DNA from: Mariprofundaceae bacterium
GTDB lineage: Bacteria > Pseudomonadota > Zetaproteobacteria > Mariprofundales > Mariprofundaceae
Length of the DNA stretch: 32,197 nt
Direction of reading: 5' to 3'
Assembly: GCA_015488375.1 (NCBI GenBank)
Contig: WFNX01000067.1
Location: forward strand, 1 to 32,197
The notes below the pieces were generated by a model. That model did no database searches. It was given only the letters and a program-made list of their open reading frames with translations, and had not been told where the DNA came from. Positions 15,012 through 31,703 of the stretch are shown one piece after another. Both the position numbers and the translations under genes were made by a program. Numbering within the stretch: the first letter of the stretch is position 1; each line of letters starts with the position of its first letter.

Positions 15012-16355
15012 TTATTGGCGTCCCTGATGCAGGCTTTCGAAAAAGATGCGGTCGATATCTTCATGCCAGTCCTGATGCCAGGCCTTCAGCCAGCGTTCGG
15101 CCTGGGTCTGGCCGGATTCAACGGCATGGATAACCGGCGCCAGGAACAGACTTTCATCCTGTCCGGCATCATTGGTGATATGGATGCGCGCCAGTCCTGC
15201 GGCCGCGATATCCAGCATCTGCTCGCATAATTCCAGCACCGTGGTCTGGCGAAAGGGCGTGGCAAGTGCCGTGCGCGGCACGGCCTCGCGCAGGGCAAGA
15301 ACTTCGGCATGGCTCCAGTCGGCAATCATGTTCCAGGCGTGGTCTTCAGCTTGTGCATCATATAATAATCCTTTCCACAGGGCCGGCAGCGAACAGATCC
15401 ATGGCCAGGGACCGGCATCGGCGCCGCGCATTTCCAGATACTGTTTCAGACGCACGTCGGGGAACAACGTGGAGACATGCAGCTCCCAGTCGTCCATGCT
15501 CGGGTATTCGCCGGGCAGTTGTGCAAGTCTGCCCTGCATGAAATCACGGAAACTGGCGCCGGCGCAATCGATATAACGATTCTCGCGGATGATAAAATAC
15601 ATCGGCGCATCCAGTGCCCATTCGGTATAGGCGGCAAAGCCGAAATCCTCGGTAAATACACAGGCCGGGATGCCGGTGCGCCCGGGGTCGGTATCCAGCC
15701 AGCAGGCGGCGCGACGGGAGAGAAAACCGGAAGGCCTGCCGTTTTCAAACGGACTGGCTGCATACAGGGCTGTTACCAGCGGTTGCAGGCACATCGCGAT
15801 GCGCATTTTGCGCGCCATGTCGGCCTCATCGGAAAAATCGAGATTGGCCTGTACGGTGGCTGTGCGCAGCATCATGTCCAGGCCGCCATTGCCGACGCGG
15901 GGCATGTAGCGGCGCATGACCTCATAGCGGGCTTTCGGCATCCACGGGATAGCCTCGCGTGCCCATTTGGGCTGGAAGCCAAGGGCCAGAAAGCCGATGC
16001 CCAGTTCTTCCGTAGCCTGGTGCAGCAAATGCAGGTGGTCGGTCGTTTCCCGGCAGGTATCGAAGATGCTGTTTAATGGCGCGCCGGAAAGCTCCAGCTG
16101 GCCGCCTGGCTCCAGCGTGATCGATGCCATGCCCCGGCGCAGGCCGATGATGTGATCATTTTCCATGATCGGCTGCCAGTCTTCCCGGCACAGCATTTGT
16201 AGCAGCGCGCTGATGCTGCGCTCACCGGCATAGGGGATCGGACGCAGGGTTTCCTTGCAGAAGCCGATTTTTTCATGTTCGGTGCCGATGCGCCAGGCAT
16301 GTTTCGGTGTGCTGCCGCGGGCGAACCAGCCGGCCAGATCCTCGATGGTTAACAT
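15012..16355 (-). CDS. gshA: Glutamate-cysteine ligase (GCS2, plant/proteobacterial type)
   Basis: 447 aa; WRIGTEHEKIGF, ITLEPGGQLELSGAPL, RYMPRVGNGGLDMMLRTATVQANLDFSDEADM, ...FPDVRLKQYLEMRGADAG. Confidence 0.94.
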   Translation of the reverse strand: MLTIEDLAGWFARGSTPKHAWRIGTEHEKIGFCKETLRPIPYAGERSISALLQMLCREDWQPIMENDHIIGLRRGMASITLEPGGQLELSGAPLNSIFDTCRETTDHLHLLHQATEELGIGFLALGFQPKWAREAIPWMPKARYEVMRRYMPRVGNGGLDMMLRTATVQANLDFSDEADMARKMRIAMCLQPLVTALYAASPFENGRPSGFLSRRAACWLDTDPGRTGIPACVFTEDFGFAAYTEWALDAPMYFIIRENRYIDCAGASFRDFMQGRLAQLPGEYPSMDDWELHVSTLFPDVRLKQYLEMRGADAGPWPWICSLPALWKGLLYDAQAEDHAWNMIADWSHAEVLALREAVPRTALATPFRQTTVLELCEQMLDIAAAGLARIHITNDAGQDESLFLAPVIHAVESGQTQAERWLKAWHQDWHEDIDRIFFESLHQGRQ

Positions 16356-16529: not shown

Positions 16530-16651
16530 CTGAATGTGAGGGGGGTCACAGTTGCGCAGTCTTCCCGGAAGGAATGCGTGCTTTGATGCATGACGGAGGG
16601 GAAAGAAACAAATGGCTCTGCGGAGTCAAATTTTTGGAGGAAATTACAGAT

Positions 16652-17944
16652 ATGAAGAAAATGCTTCTTTCTGCTGCTGCCTTCGCTGTTGTTGCTGTTT
16701 CTGCTGTTGCAGTTGCACCGACGACTTCTGAGGCAATCCCGGCGTTCGCACGCCAGACCGGCGCTGCTTGCTTGAGCTGCCATTTCATGAGCTTCCCGAC
16801 GCTGTCCAGCTTCGGTCGTTCATTCAAGGTTAACGGCTTTACCGACGTAGGCGAACAGGCGCTGGTTGAAGACGAAGGCCTGTCCATTCCGGCTTCGCTG
16901 AACATCACGGCCGTGGTTCGTCCGCAGTTCCAGAGTGTGAGCACAACGGGTGCTCCGACGACGAAGACGGCTGCAATTACGGCTGACCAGGTGCTGTTGA
17001 TCGGTGGTCGCTTTGGTACCAATAGTGGTGTGTTCATCGAATATGATGGCACATTCGCCAATGTTCAGATCATGAACTCGTTCGACTTCGGTTCGTTCCG
17101 TGCTGGTGTGAATATCTTTAACACCGGTTTCGGTGAAACGGCTGGTCTGGAACTGTCCTCCGTACACGGTCAGCATGGTGGTTTGCTGAATGGTAAGAAT
17201 CTGTCCGCTGAAAACACCCTGGCTTCTGCCGGCGGCAACACCGGTGGTGTGGCTTTCTGGGCTGCCAACGATTGGGCCATGGCATCTGTTTCATTGATCA
17301 CTGACGGTATTGCACTGGATGGCGCAACTTCTAACTCTTTGAAGCTGGCTCCTTCGTTCCGTGTGTTCCTGCAGCCTGAAATTGCCGGTTGGGAAACAGG
17401 CTTCGGTGGTGGTGTCACTTCTGGTCGCACGGGCAACAACGCCACGGTTCAGGCCGTTGGTGCTGCATTGGGTCTGATTGGCCCTGCGCCGCTCCCGGCT
17501 GCTCTGCCGGCAACGTGGCAGGCTGAGATGAAGAAGTGGTTCCTGGACTTCCAGGCCCATGGCGAGCTGGGTGATACGCAGGTTGGTGTTTATGCTGACT
17601 TCGCTTCTGCCAAGAAGTCTTCCGCTGCTGCTGGTACGGGTAACAAGGTCAATCTGTTCAACATGACGCCTGGCGATCTGGAAGGCTGGCACTTCCGTGG
17701 TAACGTCAAGCCGATGCACAATGTGATTTTCGGCGCCGGTTATGGCGAAATGAAGAATAAGGACAACCTGGCTGCTCTGTTCACGGGCTCGAAGACACGT
17801 CAGTGGCAGATCGGTGCCGAGTATGAAGTATATCAGAACTTCGTAATCTCGCTGATCTACAACAACACGAAGGTTACACCGAACGTAGGCCTTGGTTCGA
17901 CCACGACGAAGACCACGTTGTTGGATATCGAAGCACTTATCTAA
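16652..17944 (+). CDS. cyc2: Cyc2-type monoheme outer-membrane cytochrome-porin fusion (candidate Fe(II) oxidase)
   Basis: 430 aa; signal peptide MKKMLLSAAAFAVVAVSAVAVAPTTSEA; IPAFARQTGAACLSCHFMSFPTLSSFGRSFKVNGFTDVG = N-terminal CxxCH module followed by a Gly/Asn/aromatic-alternating beta-barrel-like region. Shine-Dalgarno TTGGAGGAAA at about 16635. Confidence 0.85.
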   Translation: MKKMLLSAAAFAVVAVSAVAVAPTTSEAIPAFARQTGAACLSCHFMSFPTLSSFGRSFKVNGFTDVGEQALVEDEGLSIPASLNITAVVRPQFQSVSTTGAPTTKTAAITADQVLLIGGRFGTNSGVFIEYDGTFANVQIMNSFDFGSFRAGVNIFNTGFGETAGLELSSVHGQHGGLLNGKNLSAENTLASAGGNTGGVAFWAANDWAMASVSLITDGIALDGATSNSLKLAPSFRVFLQPEIAGWETGFGGGVTSGRTGNNATVQAVGAALGLIGPAPLPAALPATWQAEMKKWFLDFQAHGELGDTQVGVYADFASAKKSSAAAGTGNKVNLFNMTPGDLEGWHFRGNVKPMHNVIFGAGYGEMKNKDNLAALFTGSKTRQWQIGAEYEVYQNFVISLIYNNTKVTPNVGLGSTTTKTTLLDIEALI

Positions 17945-17968
17945 TCGGTACTTCGATTGTCGATCCGG

Positions 17969-17998
17969 AAGGGGCGCTTTGTGCGCCCCTTCTTTTTT
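17969..17998 (+). terminator. Rho-independent terminator of the cyc2-like gene
   Basis: Perfect stem AAGGGGCGC / GCGCCCCTT with 5-nt loop TTTGT, followed by CTTTTTT. Confidence 0.93.
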
Positions 17999-18051: not shown

Positions 18052-18759
18052 ATGAAATGCTACCTGAAAAACGCCCTGAAAATTTTTCCCCTGCTGGCCC
18101 TGCTGGCCGGCTGTGCGGACGGCATGCCGCAACTGTTCTGGGAAGTCGATGATAAGACGCCGGACTATGCACGCTCTGCCGGCTCCGCCGGGACGCAGGC
18201 GGAGGCTAACAAGCACCTGGAAGTGCCGCCCGAGCTGCGCGGGAAAATCGGCGTGCCGATGGCGGAGCAGGTGGCGGTGCATAACAGCCGTGAATTGCCT
18301 GAAAAGTATCGGCGGGCCGTTGCCGGCAAGGCCGTTTCACTGGATGCGCGCGTTTATCCTGTAGCCGCAGCCGATGTTTTCTCGGCAACGGTGGATGCCA
18401 TGACGAGTCTGAATCTGCCGGTGGATTCCGTGGATTCTCCCAGCGGCATTGTCACGACGGACTGGGTGCGCAAGGGCGCGAACAGTGCCTCGATTGCGGC
18501 CATGTTCGGCTATACATCCGGCACCATGACGCGACATCGCTTTATCGTGCGCGTATTTCGCCTGCAGCAGGAAACACCGGCCAGCAAGCTGGAAATTCGC
18601 ATGCTGGGTCAGTCGTATGAAAACGGCCATTGGGTGAACAAGCCATTCAAGCGTGCGCCCAGCGAGGAGCTGTTTCAGCGCGTTGAGGAAATTCTGGGTA
18701 TGAAGCAGGCGGAAACGCAGGCAACGCAGACGGGCGCGGAGATTCCCGAAAGCGAATAG
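18052..18759 (+). CDS. BamC/NlpB-like outer-membrane lipoprotein
   Basis: Lipobox LLALLAGCADG; NKHLEVPPELRGKIG...; VFSATVDAMTSLNLPVDSVDSPSGIVTTDWV resembles the BamC helix-grip repeat. Remote similarity only. Confidence 0.65.
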   Translation: MKCYLKNALKIFPLLALLAGCADGMPQLFWEVDDKTPDYARSAGSAGTQAEANKHLEVPPELRGKIGVPMAEQVAVHNSRELPEKYRRAVAGKAVSLDARVYPVAAADVFSATVDAMTSLNLPVDSVDSPSGIVTTDWVRKGANSASIAAMFGYTSGTMTRHRFIVRVFRLQQETPASKLEIRMLGQSYENGHWVNKPFKRAPSEELFQRVEEILGMKQAETQATQTGAEIPESE

Positions 18760-18790: not shown

Positions 18791-19576
18791 TCAGTCGATC
18801 AATCGGGCCAGCGCCTGGCCCGGATCGGGCTGACGCATCAGGGATTCACCGATCAGAAAGCCGTAGATGCCATGTTCGTTCATCAGGCGGATATCCCCGG
18901 TCGTATTGATGCCGGATTCGGTAATGACGGTTTTTTGCCCATCGACGGCATCCAGCAGCTCCAGCGTGGTTTGCAGGCTGGTTTCAAAGGTATGCAGGTT
19001 GCGGTTATTGATGCCGATCAGTGAGGTGTCCAGCCTGAGCGCACGATCCAGTTCCTGCCGGTTATGCACTTCCGGCAACACCGACAGTCCCTGCTCGCGG
19101 GCGCAGGCAGTCAGTTCGGCGGCCAGCATATCGTCGATCATGGCCAGGATGAGCAGAATCGCATCGGCGCCCATGGCGCGTGCCTCGATAACCTGATACG
19201 GATCAAGCATGAATTCCTTGCGCAGCACGGGCAGGTCCACCCTCTGCCGGATTTGCCGGACATACTCATCGCAGCCCTGGAAATATTTGACATCGGTTAA
19301 TACCGACAGGCAGCAGGCGCCGCCCCGGACATAGCTTTCGGCAATGGACACCGGATTGAAATCGGCGTGGATGACGCCCTTCGACGGGCTGGCCTTTTTG
19401 ACTTCGGCAATCACGGCATTCTGTTGCCGGCGGACTTTTGTTTGCAATGCGGCGGCAAAGTCCAGCGGCTGGTAGTCACCGGCCTGCTCCAGGAGCACTG
19501 CTTCCGGGCGCTGCTGTTTGCAATGCGCAACCCACTCCCGTTTATAGGCTGCAATCTCATCCAGAATCGAGGGCAT
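18791..19576 (-). CDS. trpC: Indole-3-glycerol-phosphate synthase
   Basis: MPSILDEIAAYKREWV...VIAEVKKASPSKGVIHADFNPVSIAESYVRGGACCLSVLTDVKYFQGCDEYV...LPVLRKEFMLDPYQV...LIGINNRNLHTFETSL...ESGI. Start refined to 19576. Confidence 0.97.
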   Translation of the reverse strand: MPSILDEIAAYKREWVAHCKQQRPEAVLLEQAGDYQPLDFAAALQTKVRRQQNAVIAEVKKASPSKGVIHADFNPVSIAESYVRGGACCLSVLTDVKYFQGCDEYVRQIRQRVDLPVLRKEFMLDPYQVIEARAMGADAILLILAMIDDMLAAELTACAREQGLSVLPEVHNRQELDRALRLDTSLIGINNRNLHTFETSLQTTLELLDAVDGQKTVITESGINTTGDIRLMNEHGIYGFLIGESLMRQPDPGQALARLID

Positions 19577-19606
19577 ATGCGATCCACCTTGCAAAATGAT
19601 CAGGCG

Positions 19607-19634
19607 ATAATGGGAATGGGTGGCCGGAAGTCAA
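19607..19634 (-). promoter_or_regulatory. Candidate sigma70-like internal promoter for trpC
   Basis: Minus strand TTGACT (19634-19629), 16-nt spacer, CATTAT (19612-19607), within the 126-nt trpD-trpC gap. Confidence 0.4.
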
Positions 19635-19702
19635 TGCTGAAGCCGGTCTGATATGATTATCCATGGGTTCTGCGCGCGCTCCAGCGGAGGTCGTTTCCTC
19701 TG

Positions 19703-20740
19703 TCAGGCGTCTTGTGCGGTTTCGTTGCTGATCCGGATCAGTGCCTCCAGCTTGTGCTGAACGGCTCCCGAATCAATCGCGCGGGCGGCCATGGCGATGC
19801 CGTCACCGATGCCATCGGTTTTGCCGGCGACCCACAGCGCGGCTGCGGCATTGAGCAATACGATATCCCGTCCGGCACCGGGCTGTCCGGCAAAGATATG
19901 ACGCAGTATTTCCGCATTGGTTGCGGCATCATCGCCAGCCAGGGCTGCGGGCACGGCATAGGGCATGCCGAAGGCGGCCGGGTCGATCTCGAAACGGACC
20001 GGTTCGGCATCCCTTTCGACCAGTACGGCATCGGTGATGGTGGTGGTGGTGATTTCATCCAGGCCATCGCGTCCGTGTACAACGAGTGCGCGCGTGCAGC
20101 CCAGTTGCTGCAACGCACGGGCCATGAGTTCAAGCTTGTCTGCGGCGAAGACGCCCAGTACCTGATATTCGGCGCCGGCCGGGTTGGTCAGAGGCCCCAG
20201 CAGATTGAACACCGTACGGATACCCAGTTCGCGGCGAACCGGGCCGGCATATTTCATGGCCGGATGCAATGCCTGGGCAAACAGAAAACCGATGCCGGCT
20301 TCGTCAATGCAGCGGGCCACCTGTTCGGGTGAAATGTCCAGCCTGACGCCGAGCGCCTCGAGCACGTCGGCGGCGCCTGATTTCGATGACATGGCCCGAT
20401 TGCCATGCTTGGCGACGGGCACGCCACAGGCTGCAACGACAAATGAGACGGCGGTGGAGATATTGAAAGTTTTGGCGCCATCGCCGCCGGTGCCGCAGGT
20501 ATCAATAAGCCCGCGGCTGGCCGGCCGGATGCGCGTGGCGGCCGCACGCATGGCGCGTGCCGCGCCGGCAATGATCCCGGCATTTTCTCCGCGGATGGAC
20601 AGACCCATAAGAATGGCTGCGATTTGTGCCGGACTGGCCTCGCCCTGCATGATGGCCGTGAATATTTGCTCGCTGTGTGCGGCATCGGGCAGATCGCCGG
20701 CCTGAAGCCCGGCAATGGCCTGGCGGATGATCTCATTCAT
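19703..20740 (-). CDS. trpD: Anthranilate phosphoribosyltransferase
   Basis: 345 aa; [74 protein letters not shown]. Confidence 0.97.
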
Positions 20741-21311
20741 GCCGCTCTCCCGTGATGCGCAGAAAGTTCTTCAGCATGGTATGGCCATGTTCGGTCAGGA
20801 TGGATTCCGGATGGAACTGCACGCCGAAGGTCGGATGATCGCGGTGGCGCAATCCCATGAGTTCGTTTTCCTGCGTCCATGCCGTGCGCAGCAGGCAGTC
20901 GGGCAGGGGCTCGGGCACGATCAGGGAATGATAGCGTGTGGCCGTGAAGGGTGAGGGGATGCTGCGGAATACGCCCTGTCCGTCGTGATGGATCGGGCTG
21001 GTTTTGCCGTGCATCAGACGCGGCGCGCGAACAACCCGGCCGCCAAAGACTTCAGCGATGGACTGATGGCCGAGACAGACGCCGAGAATCGGAATATGGC
21101 CGGAGAAGCGGCGGATCACCTCCATGGAAATGCCGGCTTCATGCGGCGTGCAGGGGCCCGGTGAAATCAGGATATGATCCGGGTGCATGGCGGCGATTTC
21201 ATCCGTGGTGATTTTGTCATTGCGGAACACCTGCGGGTTTTCGCCCAGTTCGCCCAGGTACTGCACCAGATTGAAGGTGAATGAATCGTAATTGTCGATG
21301 ACCAGAATCAT
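20733..21311 (-). CDS. trpG: Anthranilate synthase component II (glutamine amidotransferase)
   Basis: 192 aa; [23 protein letters not shown]...[14 protein letters not shown]...[17 protein letters not shown]...[14 protein letters not shown]. Confidence 0.97.
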
Positions 21312-26955: not shown

Positions 26956-26990
26956 AAACACCCGCGCATTGTCGCGGGTGTTTTTGTTTT
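26956..26990 (+). terminator. Rho-independent terminator downstream of ppiD
   Basis: AAACACCCGCG-CATTGT-CGCGGGTGTTT then TTGTTTT. Confidence 0.92.
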
Positions 26991-27027
26991 ACTTGTCTGC
27001 AGCCACCCAATCCATAGGCTTCGCGCA

Positions 27028-27215
27028 ACATTTCAGGTGCCCGGGTGATGTGATGTCGCAGGGTGAAACGGGAAGTCCGGTGCGGATGCAAGTCCAAGGC
27101 CGGCGCAGCCCCCGCTACTGTAATCCTGACAAATTCGTTTGCAGGCCACTGGAGGTGTTTTCCGGGAAGGCAAGGGCGAAGGCGGAAGAGGGAGAGCCAG
27201 GAGACCGGCCTGAAA
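27028..27215 (+). ncRNA. Cobalamin (AdoCbl/B12) riboswitch aptamer upstream of btuB
   Basis: Consensus blocks in order: TTTCAGGTGCCCGGGTGATG, GGGTGAAACGGGAAGTCCGGTG, GCAAGTCCAAGGCCGGCGCAGCCCCCGCTACTGTAATCCTGAC, GCCACTG, GAGAGCCAGGAGACCGGCCTG. Confidence 0.95.
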
Positions 27216-27220
27216 TGGTT

Positions 27221-27293
27221 ACGATATGCGTTCGGGGTGCGACGAAACAGCAGGTGCTTTTTACCTGCGTTCCCTGGCCCCGTTGCATAACGT
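27221..27293 (+). promoter_or_regulatory. Candidate expression platform: long nested hairpin between B12 aptamer and btuB ribosome-binding site
   Basis: Outer stem ACGATATGC..CGGGG (27221-27237) pairs with CCCCGttGCATAaCGT (27278-27293); inner hairpin GCAGGT-GCTTTTT-ACCTGC (27250-27268). No U-tract. Confidence 0.6.
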
Positions 27294-27334
27294 TCACAAT
27301 AAAACGATGCACGGCGGGTGCAGGAGGATATGCA

Positions 27335-29260
27335 ATGAAATACAGACAGACAATGTGGGCGGTTCTGGCCTGCATGGCGTGTGCCGTTCAGGCGCAGGCA
27401 GACGATATCGGCACAATGATTGTCACCGATGACAAGGCGCCTTCAAAAGCGGCAACATCAGCTCATAGTGTGACCGTGATTGATCGGGAGATGATCGAAC
27501 GCAGCCATGCGGCCAGCGTGGCTGAATTGTTGCGGGGCGTTGCCAATATCGTGGTTCGTGATGTTACCGGGGTGGGCGCCAAATCGCAGGTTGATCTCGG
27601 AGGCTATGGTGAGTCGGCCGCAGCCAACAGTGTGGTGTTGATTGACGGTCGAAGGGTGAATGCACCGGATTTGTCCGGAGTGGACTGGAGCCAGATTCCC
27701 GTTGACCAGATTGAACGCGTGGAAATTGTGCATGGCGGCGGCTCGGTATTGTATGGCCAGGGCGCTGTTGGCGGAGTCATCAATATCATTACGCGTGTGC
27801 CGGAGTCCGGCGGACAGGCGATGATCGAGGCCGGTAGTTTCGGGCATTATAATGCGGCCGTCCGTGCAGGCGTGGATAGCGATACAAGCCGTATGGAGAT
27901 CAATGTTTCCGGCCAGTCAACAGACGGCTATCGCAAAAACAGTTCCTTTGAACGTTTTGACGGCGGGGCGCGCGCGGAAGTTGATCTTTCCTCATCGCTG
28001 ACGGCCTCGCTGAAAGGCAATTTCCATCATGACCGGGTTGGCCTGCCGGGTTCGTTAACGGCCACCCAGGTGGCCGCCGATCCACGGCAAACCAACAACC
28101 CGAATGATTTCGCGCGTACGGATGACGGCTTTATCGACGGCGGGCTGTTATGGGATATTGCCTCCGGACTGGAGCTGAATGTCGAGGGCGGTGTGCGCCG
28201 GCGCAATGTGCATTCGGAATGGGTTTCCTTTACAGCCAATTCGGATTATCTGTTGCTCGATAAATCCATTCGCCCTTATCTGCGCTATTCGTTTGGTGAT
28301 GCGGTCCGTACTTCGGTGACGGCTGGCGCCGATATTCATGCCGGCGATGGTTCATTTGCCTTTGGCGGTGCGTTTCCTTTGCCGACAACAACGTTCAGCC
28401 GCAGTCATCAGGGATATTATGTCTATACCGATGTTCGCGATAATGGCGGACGCTGGCATCTCAATGGTGGCGTGCGCAGCGAGCGCCTGTCTGACACCTT
28501 TGTGCAGGCGACGCGTCAGCAGGTGTCGCAGAATCGTACGGTGTGGGAAATCGGTGCCTCGGTTGCGCCTGTTCGCCAGTTGCATGTACGTGCTTCGGCA
28601 TCGACATCGGTACGTTTTCCGTTGCTTGATGAACGTTTCAGCTTTTTCAGCGGTACGGTCAATACCGCGCTGGTTGCCCAGACCGGGCAGCACTGGGGCG
28701 TGGGTATGCGCTTTGGCGATGAGCGTACAAGCCTTGATGTCGGATTTAATCGCGCCGACCTGAAGCATGAGATTTTTTATAATCCGCTGGTGTTTGCCAA
28801 TGCCAATTATACGGACCCGACACGGCATGATGTCCTGATGCTGCAGGGACACTGGCGTATCACGGAGACGGCGGATGTATCGGCCAGTTATACCTATACC
28901 AGGGCCACTTTTCGAGGCGGTGCGTTTGACGGCAAGGATGTGCCGGCCGTGCCTCAGCATGCTTTTGGTGGACGTGTGAACTCGGACTGGGGCAATGGCC
29001 TTACCACGGTGCTGGATGGCAGCTATGTCGGAGCATCCTATCTGATCAGTGATCAGGGAAATGTACGTCCGAAACTTGCTGCGTATTTTCTGCTCAATGC
29101 TGCAGTGAATTATCAATGGCATGATATTGAGTTTTTCGTCCGTGGTGAAAACCTGACCAATACCAAATACAGCAGCTATGGCGTGAAAGGATTTGCCGGT
29201 GATGCGTTTTATCCTTCACCGACGATCTCCGTACGCGGCGGGATACGCTATTCATTCTGA
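27335..29260 (+). CDS. btuB: TonB-dependent cobalamin receptor BtuB
   Basis: MKYRQTMWAVLACMACAVQAQADDIGTMIVTDD (signal peptide plus TonB-box-like GTMIVT), plug SVVLIDGRRVNAPDLSGVDWSQIPVDQIERVEIVHGGGSVLYGQGAVGGVINIITR, C-terminal ...GGIRYSF. AGGAGG at 27322; B12 riboswitch upstream. Confidence 0.92.
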   Translation: MKYRQTMWAVLACMACAVQAQADDIGTMIVTDDKAPSKAATSAHSVTVIDREMIERSHAASVAELLRGVANIVVRDVTGVGAKSQVDLGGYGESAAANSVVLIDGRRVNAPDLSGVDWSQIPVDQIERVEIVHGGGSVLYGQGAVGGVINIITRVPESGGQAMIEAGSFGHYNAAVRAGVDSDTSRMEINVSGQSTDGYRKNSSFERFDGGARAEVDLSSSLTASLKGNFHHDRVGLPGSLTATQVAADPRQTNNPNDFARTDDGFIDGGLLWDIASGLELNVEGGVRRRNVHSEWVSFTANSDYLLLDKSIRPYLRYSFGDAVRTSVTAGADIHAGDGSFAFGGAFPLPTTTFSRSHQGYYVYTDVRDNGGRWHLNGGVRSERLSDTFVQATRQQVSQNRTVWEIGASVAPVRQLHVRASASTSVRFPLLDERFSFFSGTVNTALVAQTGQHWGVGMRFGDERTSLDVGFNRADLKHEIFYNPLVFANANYTDPTRHDVLMLQGHWRITETADVSASYTYTRATFRGGAFDGKDVPAVPQHAFGGRVNSDWGNGLTTVLDGSYVGASYLISDQGNVRPKLAAYFLLNAAVNYQWHDIEFFVRGENLTNTKYSSYGVKGFAGDAFYPSPTISVRGGIRYSF

Positions 29261-29927
29261 TCGGTGGCATCTGTTGCCATGGGTGGCCGTCAGCCTGGCC
29301 ACCCATGGCATGCTGCTGTATATGTTTTACATCAGCTTCAAGGATATCCCTGTGCCTGCTCCGGCAGGGCAGGTGATGGTTGTTGCCCTGCAGGACGGTG
29401 TGTCTGTACATGCCCGCGCTCAGCCTGCCGCTGATTCTGCGCCGCAGGTGCAACAGGCTGAAACAAGCAGCATGGATGAGCATCGGCAGATGGCCGTTAC
29501 GTCGCCTGCGGTTCGTGTGCAGCGCAGACGCGAAGTGGCGGCAGCGCCGGCACAACATCAGCCTGTATCGGCGGAGCCTGCAGACCGAGGCAATATCAGG
29601 ACGCAGGGCATAAATGCGCAAGCCGCAAAGCAGACCGTGCCTGCCGCACAGGCCATGGCCGATCGTGAACAGCGGTTGTTGCGGATACGGCGGCATCTTG
29701 AACATTTCAAATATTATCCGGCAAGTGCACGGCGGCGCGGCATTGAAGGTCGGGTGGAAGTGGCGTTTGATCTGGATGCCCGGGGGATGGCAAGCCGTTT
29801 GCAACTGTTATCCCGTTCCGGCTACCGCATTCTGGATCGAGCTGCTCTGGAAACCGTGCGGCGCGCCAGTCCTTTTCCGGCCCGCGGCGGGCATTATCGT
29901 TTTCAACTGGTGTTCAGGCAGTCATGA
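29193..29927 (+). CDS. tonB: TonB-family energy transducer
   Basis: N-terminal TM LPWVAVSLATHGMLLYMFYISF; C-terminal FKYYPASARRRGIEGRVEVAFDLDARGMASRLQLLSRSGYRILDRAALETVRRASPFPA is the TonB C-terminal signature. Exact start uncertain (it overlaps btuB unless a rare start near 29274 is used). Confidence 0.87.
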   Translation: MPVMRFILHRRSPYAAGYAIHSDRWHLLPWVAVSLATHGMLLYMFYISFKDIPVPAPAGQVMVVALQDGVSVHARAQPAADSAPQVQQAETSSMDEHRQMAVTSPAVRVQRRREVAAAPAQHQPVSAEPADRGNIRTQGINAQAAKQTVPAAQAMADREQRLLRIRRHLEHFKYYPASARRRGIEGRVEVAFDLDARGMASRLQLLSRSGYRILDRAALETVRRASPFPARGGHYRFQLVFRQS

Positions 29928-30730
29928 GGGCATGGCTTCTGGGCATCCTGTTGCTGACGGCCGTCCCCGTACAGGCGGCGGACAGGGTGCTGGCACTGGC
30001 ACCGCATGTATGCGAAATGCTTTATGCCATTGATGCGGGTGCAGCAGTGGCCGGTGTTGTTGATTATTGTGATTTCCCTGCCGCAGTTCAGCGCAAACCG
30101 CATGTGGGCAATTATCGTCGTATCAATGTGGAAGCCGCCTTGCGTTTGCATCCGCAAGTCGCCGTAGTGCTTAGTCGCCAGATTCCGGGGGTGACGAGAC
30201 TGGAGCATATGGGCGTTCGTATCGTGACCTCGGACCCGCGCAGTTTCGAAGAGATTTTTCATGATCTGCTGATGCTGGGAGAGCTGACGAATCACCGTCG
30301 GCAGGCTGAGGCGCTGGTGCAGCAGCAGCGCATGCGTCTGCAGCAAATCCGGCAGCAGGCCGCCGATAATGTGCGGGTGTTTTATGAATTGTGGCCGGAC
30401 CCTCTGATGACGGCGGGTGGCAAAAGCTTTATCCATTCATTAATTGAGCTCGGTGGAGGGCATAATGTGTTTGGCGACATCGCACTGGAGTCGCCGCATG
30501 TAAATGTTGAAGCCGTGCTGCGCGCTGAACCCGAGTTGATCATTATTCCGCTGGAGCGCCGGCGACTGACTGATCGAAAGCGCTTCTGGCAGCACTGGCT
30601 TGGTCCATCGGTGCGTTTTGCCGCCATTGACCCGGATTTACTGCATCGGCCGGGGCCGCGACTGATTGAAGGGCTGGAACAGTTGCAGCAGGCATTGCTT
30701 GCTGTCCGCTCAGCGAAGGAGTTGAAATAG
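29924..30730 (+). CDS. btuF: Cobalamin ABC transporter substrate-binding protein
   Basis: MRAWLLGILLLTAVPVQAADRVLALAPHVCEMLYAIDAGAAVAGVVDYCDFP...VGNYRRINVEAALRLHPQVAVV...MTAGGKSFIHSLIELGGGHNVF; ATGA overlap with tonB; operon context. Confidence 0.9.
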   Translation: MRAWLLGILLLTAVPVQAADRVLALAPHVCEMLYAIDAGAAVAGVVDYCDFPAAVQRKPHVGNYRRINVEAALRLHPQVAVVLSRQIPGVTRLEHMGVRIVTSDPRSFEEIFHDLLMLGELTNHRRQAEALVQQQRMRLQQIRQQAADNVRVFYELWPDPLMTAGGKSFIHSLIELGGGHNVFGDIALESPHVNVEAVLRAEPELIIIPLERRRLTDRKRFWQHWLGPSVRFAAIDPDLLHRPGPRLIEGLEQLQQALLAVRSAKELK

Positions 30731-30776
30731 TGTGCCGGTATTGCCGGGTGGCATATCAGGTCGGGAGCCGGCCGGC

Positions 30777-31703
30777 ATGATGCGCGGGTTGTTGTTGACG
30801 CTGGGGTGCGCGCTGGTGCTGTGGTTGTCGCTGGGCATGGGTGAACACTGGCTGAATCCGCTGACGGCCGAGGGGCAGGATGCCCTGATTTTATGGCAGT
30901 TGCGGGCGCCGCGGCTGATACTGGCCTTTGCGGTTGGCGGACTGCTGGCGCTGGCCGGTGCCTGGTTTCAGGTGTTGCTGGGAAATCCGCTGGCCGAACC
31001 TTACGTGCTGGGGGTGGCCGGCAGTGCTTCGGCCGGTGCCGTGGCCGGGCTTATGGGCTGGCCGGATTCGGCGCTGGTCATGTCGATCGGTGCCTTTGTC
31101 GGGGCATGGCTGGGCATTGCCTGCGTCATGTTTTTTGCCCATTTGGGGCCCAACCGGATGCTGCTGGCCGGTGTGGTACTGGCCGCATTCTGGGCGGCTG
31201 TGCTGGCGTTATTGCTGGCCCTGTTGCCTGAGCAGGGGCTGTTTCGTGCCTTTGCCTGGATGATGGGCGATCTTGGCCAGTCCGATATGCCGTTGCCTTT
31301 ACTGCTGGCGGCATGGTTACTGGCTCTGGCGTGCGGGCTGTTGTTATCCCGTTCGCTGGATATGTTATTGCTGGGTGAACGTCATGCCGAGGCCCTGGGC
31401 GTGAATGTACATCGCTTGCGCCGGCAATTGTTGCTGCTGGCCTCGGCGGTGACGGCGCTGGCGGTGACGGCTGCCGGTACCATCGGTTTTATCGGGCTGG
31501 TGATTCCGCATTTGATGCGTCTGCTGTTTGGTTCCCTGCACCGACTGGTATTGCCGGCCTCGGCCGTGGGCGGGGGACTGTTGCTGATGCTGGCCGATGC
31601 TGCGGCCCGCAGCCTCATTGCCCCGGCCGAGTTGCCGGTCGGTGTGTTGACGGCGATGATCGGTGTGCCGGTTTTCCTGCTGCTATTGCTGAGGCGGTCA
31701 TAA
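30777..31703 (+). CDS. btuC: Cobalamin ABC transporter permease (FecCD family)
   Basis: LRAPRLILAFAVGGLLALAGAWFQVLLGNPLAEPYVLGVAGSASAGA; AAGTIGFIGLVIPHLMRLLFGSLHRLVLPASAVGGGLLLMLADAAAR. Likely start 30777 (ATGATGCGC); the longer ORF begins at 30732. Confidence 0.92.
   Translation: MMRGLLLTLGCALVLWLSLGMGEHWLNPLTAEGQDALILWQLRAPRLILAFAVGGLLALAGAWFQVLLGNPLAEPYVLGVAGSASAGAVAGLMGWPDSALVMSIGAFVGAWLGIACVMFFAHLGPNRMLLAGVVLAAFWAAVLALLLALLPEQGLFRAFAWMMGDLGQSDMPLPLLLAAWLLALACGLLLSRSLDMLLLGERHAEALGVNVHRLRRQLLLLASAVTALAVTAAGTIGFIGLVIPHLMRLLFGSLHRLVLPASAVGGGLLLMLADAAARSLIAPAELPVGVLTAMIGVPVFLLLLLRRS

Follow-up and report, generated by a model that had tools for sequence, protein, structure and literature searches.

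The cyc2 locus

The window, by which we mean the whole analysed stretch of 32,197 nucleotides, contains a cyc2 gene encoding a fused cytochrome-porin (Table 1). The preliminary description of this DNA regarded the gene as a stand-alone transcription unit with its own terminator, placed between gshA and trp genes, and this view stands: a strong intrinsic terminator follows the stop codon, and the neighbours were confirmed as a gshA-type GCS2 gene and as trpC, trpD and trpG. The adjacent lipoprotein had been called BamC-like, but its sole match is a weak one to DUF3576, and we describe it as DUF3576-like. As also described, no electron-transport genes are adjacent to cyc2; the cytochrome c matches, the cbb3 oxidase and RuBisCO of this genome are all non-neighbouring. 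The order gshA, cyc2, DUF3576 lipoprotein and trpC-D-G recurs, whole or in part, in genera g1, g5, g6, g10 and g12, and a stand-alone cyc2 is therefore ordinary in Mariprofundaceae. Elsewhere in the window, a gene for a TonB-dependent receptor stands in a row with genes for a TonB-like protein, a periplasmic binding protein and a FecCD-like permease. The group resembles an operon for the uptake of siderophores, heme or B12; apart from the Pfam match of the receptor, these genes were recognized by eye.

Table 1 Features of the cyc2 locus and of a second gene group in the window
Feature	Position	Strand	Remarks
gshA-type glutamate-cysteine ligase (GCS2)	15012..16355	-	Divergent neighbour, 296 nt from cyc2
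Shine-Dalgarno sequence GGAGG	16636..16640	+	11 nt 5' of ATG; from sequence
cyc2 CDS	16652..17944	+	430 aa, stop included; ATG at 16652, stop ends at 17944
Signal peptide, residues 1-28	16652..16735	+	By inspection
Cyc2 signature, residues 28-51	16733..16804	+	AIPAFARQT, CLSCH (16769-16783), PTL
Heme (cytochrome) module, residues 29-80	16736..16891	+	Three short helices in model; invariant E73-D74 in linker
Porin-like beta-barrel, residues 81-430	16892..17941	+	16-17 strands in model
Intrinsic terminator of cyc2	17967..17993	+	11 pairs, 8 of them G-C, T tail; strong
Lipoprotein, weak DUF3576 match	18052..18759	+	3' neighbour; kept in several genera
trpC, trpD, trpG	18791..21311	-	Convergent neighbours
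TonB-dependent receptor to FecCD-like permease	26969-31703	+	Four consecutive genes

Family assignment and predicted fold

Cyc2 has been defined by the motif AXPXFAR[Q/K][T/Y] shortly N-terminal of CXXCH, a PXL four residues further on, a minimum length of 365 aa and a porin domain (Keffer 2021, PMC8406198). In the window protein, a signal-like N-terminus recognized by inspection (K2-K3, a hydrophobic core and SEA preceding I29) leads into AIPAFARQT at residues 28-36; five residues separate its arginine from the first heme cysteine, C40, and CLSCH (residues 40-44) is followed after four residues by PTL (49-51). There is no cysteine outside CxxCH, and at 430 aa the protein exceeds the length threshold. 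Its signal peptide is near-identical among aligned orthologues, and across 33 aligned sequences the N-terminus is conserved and the barrel hypervariable. The AxPxFAR-5-CxxCH pattern has two sites in the DNA of the 1.78 Mb genome and none in the reversed control, so the motif is not due to chance. Sequence searches of Pfam, NCBIfam, PHROGs and the PDB with the window protein matched no family, a search of viral contigs found no relatives, and on plasmids the only matches were weak ones over 9-31% of the query, to genes from other Pseudomonadota annotated as cytochrome C or as hypothetical.

An AlphaFold model built on 33 aligned orthologues (pLDDT 80, pTM 0.79) has the heme motif surrounded by three short helices, after which come 16-17 strands. 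The best structural matches in the PDB (Foldseek) are porins, namely PorB, OprP (rank 2), OprO (rank 5), OmpT and Omp32, with TM-scores of only about 0.5. The phosphate porins OprP and OprO (2O4V and 4RJW) are alike in barrel fold (E 7e-11 and 3e-10), but they lack the heme module and share 12-13% identity with the window protein. Both are published templates for Cyc2-PV1. For Cyc2, about 17 strands have been counted (PMC10654088). The model thus bears out a heme module fused to an OprP/OprO-like barrel, and open reading frame, motif and model agree on the signal peptide, single CxxCH and outer-membrane barrel that had been read from the DNA.

The exact published signature, the porin fold and orthologues throughout Mariprofundaceae uphold the initial assignment to the Cyc2 family: the gene is a cyc2, an already known kind, and a new member of it. 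The host genus, within Mariprofundaceae, is uncultured, and one relative in it originates from a hot spring rich in iron. Since bare CxxCH occurs seven times in the six-frame translation of the window, a fortuitous motif in a protein unrelated to Cyc2 might be imagined. We give next to no credence to such a protein, which is refuted by the rarity of the complete motif (once in the window, twice in the genome), by 44 orthologues and by the porin fold.

Cluster 1 Cyc2, as known from Mariprofundus ferrooxydans PV-1 and further Zetaproteobacteria (PMC8406198, PMC7029218), has in common with the window protein the signal peptide, the motif AxPxFAR[QK][TY] / CxxCH / PxL and its spacing, the single heme, the OprP/OprO-like barrel, the family and the host class. 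The Cluster 2 Cyc2 of Acidithiobacillus ferrooxidans is likewise a fused cytochrome-porin iron oxidase, but its gene is part of the rus operon, alongside cyc1 and coxBACD (PMC10654088), a cluster that the window cyc2 lacks; about 20-22% identity has been reported between the A. ferrooxidans and PV-1 proteins (PMC7029218). A further zetaproteobacterial form, here called type B (FARKYG..C.SCHTMFPKL), also combines a heme motif with a domain of barrel length. It differs from the window protein, which we call type A, in very low full-length similarity, a gap of three rather than four residues between CxxCH and PxL, and a longer linker.

Host genome and the second cyc2-like gene

The window genome is 87% complete. 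It encodes a complete cbb3 oxidase (ccoN, ccoO and ccoP above cut-off, on contig C9), RuBisCO on a contig other than that of cyc2, and proteins giving 21 cytochrome c domain matches, in agreement with the chemolithotrophic host proposed earlier. The placement in Zetaproteobacteria, proposed along with it, is borne out by close matches among named records, which are metagenome-assembled genomes (MAGs) of Mariprofundaceae or Zetaproteobacteria plus one labelled Gammaproteobacteria. Carbon-fixation capacity is variable inside the window's genus: RuBisCO is present in the window genome (G000) and in G002, and a search of G001 (97% complete) gave no match. The latter is J005, a Zetaproteobacteria MAG of Jinata Onsen published as lacking RuBisCO (PMC6759342).

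Of 74 family genomes, 58 yielded type A cyc2 (in two cases only via a distant type-B match) and 27 yielded type B. Type A is the sole type in two single-contig genomes, which measure 2,537,610 and 2,301,665 bp, and the orthologue in the smaller one is 60% identical to the window protein. The closed iron-oxidising Mariprofundus isolates CP-5 (2.54 Mbp) and CP-8 (2.30 Mbp) have a cyc2 homologous to that of PV-1 (PMC5513912). According to published data, all ZetaOTUs carry Cluster 1 and fewer carry Cluster 3, 65% of those together with Cluster 1 (PMC7029218). As this near universal occurrence of Cluster 1 and partial occurrence of Cluster 3 match the distribution of types A and B, we infer that type A corresponds to Cluster 1 and that type B is probably Cluster 3.

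The second motif site in the window genome falls at the beginning of a gene truncated at the edge of contig C125 (G000:C125:3-149, minus strand; FARKYGLSCNSCHTMFPK), and a type-B C-terminal piece lies at the end of contig C4 (G000:C4:9349-9570, minus strand). As the two pieces are of the same type, this second, distant cyc2-like gene is probably whole and was split by the assembly. The family motif is present in both genes, so the roles might be reversed, in which case the C125 gene would be the true Cluster 1 cyc2 and the window gene a member of Cluster 3 or of some other cluster. The distribution of the two types over the 74 genomes, the occurrence of type A alone in both single-contig genomes and the published ZetaOTU pattern make such a reversal very improbable.

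One genome of genus g10 (G081; 99% complete, 4 contigs) has a type-B cyc2 and no detected type A, and so departs from the rule by which every member of Zetaproteobacteria carries Cluster 1. In addition, proteins of 76-94 aa at L053 (G015:C132) and L057 (G030:C155) represent a barrel-less Cyc2-like heme module with the motif PxFSRQxGxxCxxCH. Similar proteins are likely also encoded at G007:C23 and G019:C4, and none was found in the window genome.

Conserved residues and proposed function

Among the 44 orthologues, H44 of CxxCH is the sole conserved histidine, and no methionine, histidine or lysine in the mature protein shows conservation sufficient for a common sixth heme ligand. H175 is conserved in nearly all proteins of the A1 clade (see below) and sits in a long loop that is replaced in the A2 clade. 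In contrast, E73, D74, E130, R34 and Q35 are invariant. We suggest that E73-D74 may lie close to the heme and may bind Fe2+ or tune the heme. The matter of the conserved histidine and absent distal ligand was not found in the main text of the paper reporting the potential of Cyc2-PV1. The absent conserved distal ligand and the invariant E73-D74 and E130 offer targets for point mutants addressing electron uptake from Fe2+ by a single-heme porin; the missing ligand is, along with the exchange pattern described below, the point to follow.

We consider it highly likely that the gene encodes a Cluster 1-type Cyc2 of Mariprofundaceae (Zetaproteobacteria), an exported porin-cytochrome oxidising dissolved Fe2+. 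PV-1 Cyc2 oxidises dissolved Fe2+ and has a potential near 208 mV. The gene, its motif, fold and orthology are observed, as are the cbb3 oxidase and RuBisCO of this genome and its many c-type cytochromes; the following scheme adds predictions on where the protein is located, on its heme loading, on the direction in which electrons flow and on Fe(II) as the donor. The protein would be exported via Sec, receive one c-type heme in the periplasm at C40-C43/H44, and insert its barrel into the outer membrane with the heme module at or in the periplasmic mouth. Dissolved Fe2+ would enter the pore and pass an electron to the heme, from which it would travel via periplasmic c-type cytochromes to the cbb3 oxidase encoded elsewhere, and part of the electrons may be driven uphill to form NADH for carbon fixation.

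Cluster 1 cyc2 is frequently the top-expressed gene in Mariprofundaceae (PMC7029218). The fraction of T-ending four-fold codons in the window gene is 0.45, compared to 0.03-0.21 in its neighbours and 0.24-0.26 in EF-Tu and EF-G, and this codon use suggests a gene adapted to high expression. A porin-cytochrome of the Cyc2 family could have a main task other than energy-yielding Fe(II) oxidation, e.g. iron detoxification or the use of another electron donor. The function of the wider family is unproven and alternative roles have been raised in the literature; the window genome has a second cyc2-like gene, and a genus-mate keeps cyc2 although RuBisCO is not detectable. We nevertheless regard another main task as unlikely, given that two single-contig genomes have type A only, that the codon use is suggestive of high expression and that the host possesses RuBisCO and a cbb3 oxidase.

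Proposed exchange between A1 and A2 barrels

In the tree, type A barrels form two clades, A1 and A2, with full support, and genera g3, g9 and g10 each contain both. Trees forcing each genus together were rejected (p-AU 4.4e-55 for g3, 2.9e-64 for g9 and 1.3e-7 for g10), whereas a control tree of gshA kept every genus intact. We compared the A2 loci (L031, L043-L046 and L162-L164, in genomes G004, G005, G020, G021, G034, G067, G068 and G076) with A1 loci. A1 and A2 copies occupy the same neighbourhood in g9 and g10. Between A1/A2 pairs the flanking genes are mostly 66-91% identical (28-56% for a few faster ones), and cyc2 is only 31-35% identical; two A1 copies of g10 with similar flank divergence share 69% in cyc2. 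The AlphaFold model of an A2 protein is weaker (pLDDT 65), but porin-like nonetheless.

The simplest reading, as these comparisons suggest, is that the mature protein was replaced by recombination behind the native signal peptide. We lean towards the more general proposal that in Mariprofundaceae the mature part of Cyc2 behaves as an interchangeable cassette. Homologous recombination at a single chromosomal locus would swap the heme module and barrel for a deeply diverged allele of the A1 or A2 kind; the crossover would fall close to the signal-peptide boundary, and the host signal peptide would be kept. Alternatively, an ancient tandem pair may have undergone differential loss, its 5' ends having been homogenised. 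G030 and G036 do carry cyc2 in tandem, both copies being A1, and no genome among those examined has A1 and A2 together. The tandem duplicates are located at G036:C314 and G030:C23; the match scores of the G036 copies are identical, and an assembly artefact is possible there. Horizontal transfer of Cyc2 is known (PMC12442345), and our literature search found no report of in-place cyc2 exchange behind a retained signal peptide.

A separate case is genus g1, where cyc2 has 93% amino acid identity and its flanks 67-81%; at four-fold sites cyc2 reaches 62%, as against mostly 39-52% in the flanks and 63% in folD. A later transfer of cyc2 than of its flanks is suggested by these values, but they would also be accounted for if a highly expressed gene is under purifying selection.

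If the cassette proposal is true, the iron oxidase would be a hypervariable porin of the cell surface, exposed to diversifying pressure (phage, ligand or iron supply), and one could ask whether barrel type is a trait tied to iron supply or phage. Cyc2 trees could then not be read as organism history, and molecular clocks on Cyc2 would blend the ages of alleles and lineages.

Conservation of the signal-peptide DNA

Between A1 and A2 copies of one genus, in groups picked for comparison after the first alignments had been seen, the signal-peptide DNA is 93-98% identical, compared to 64-75% upstream and 70-83% just downstream. This segment thus stays specific to the genus while the mature protein falls into separate clades, a pattern suggestive of replacement by recombination. 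The signal-peptide DNA does not appear to be a repeat common to other genes, as the genome contains no other strong match. Between most of the same-genus relatives compared, this segment is more conserved than the rest of cyc2. It is conserved between A1 copies as well, and selection on the signal-peptide DNA itself therefore contributes to the identity. In the window gene, 0.70 of the four-fold codons of the signal peptide are T-ending, and it is possible that this codon pattern has a role in the mRNA or in translation.
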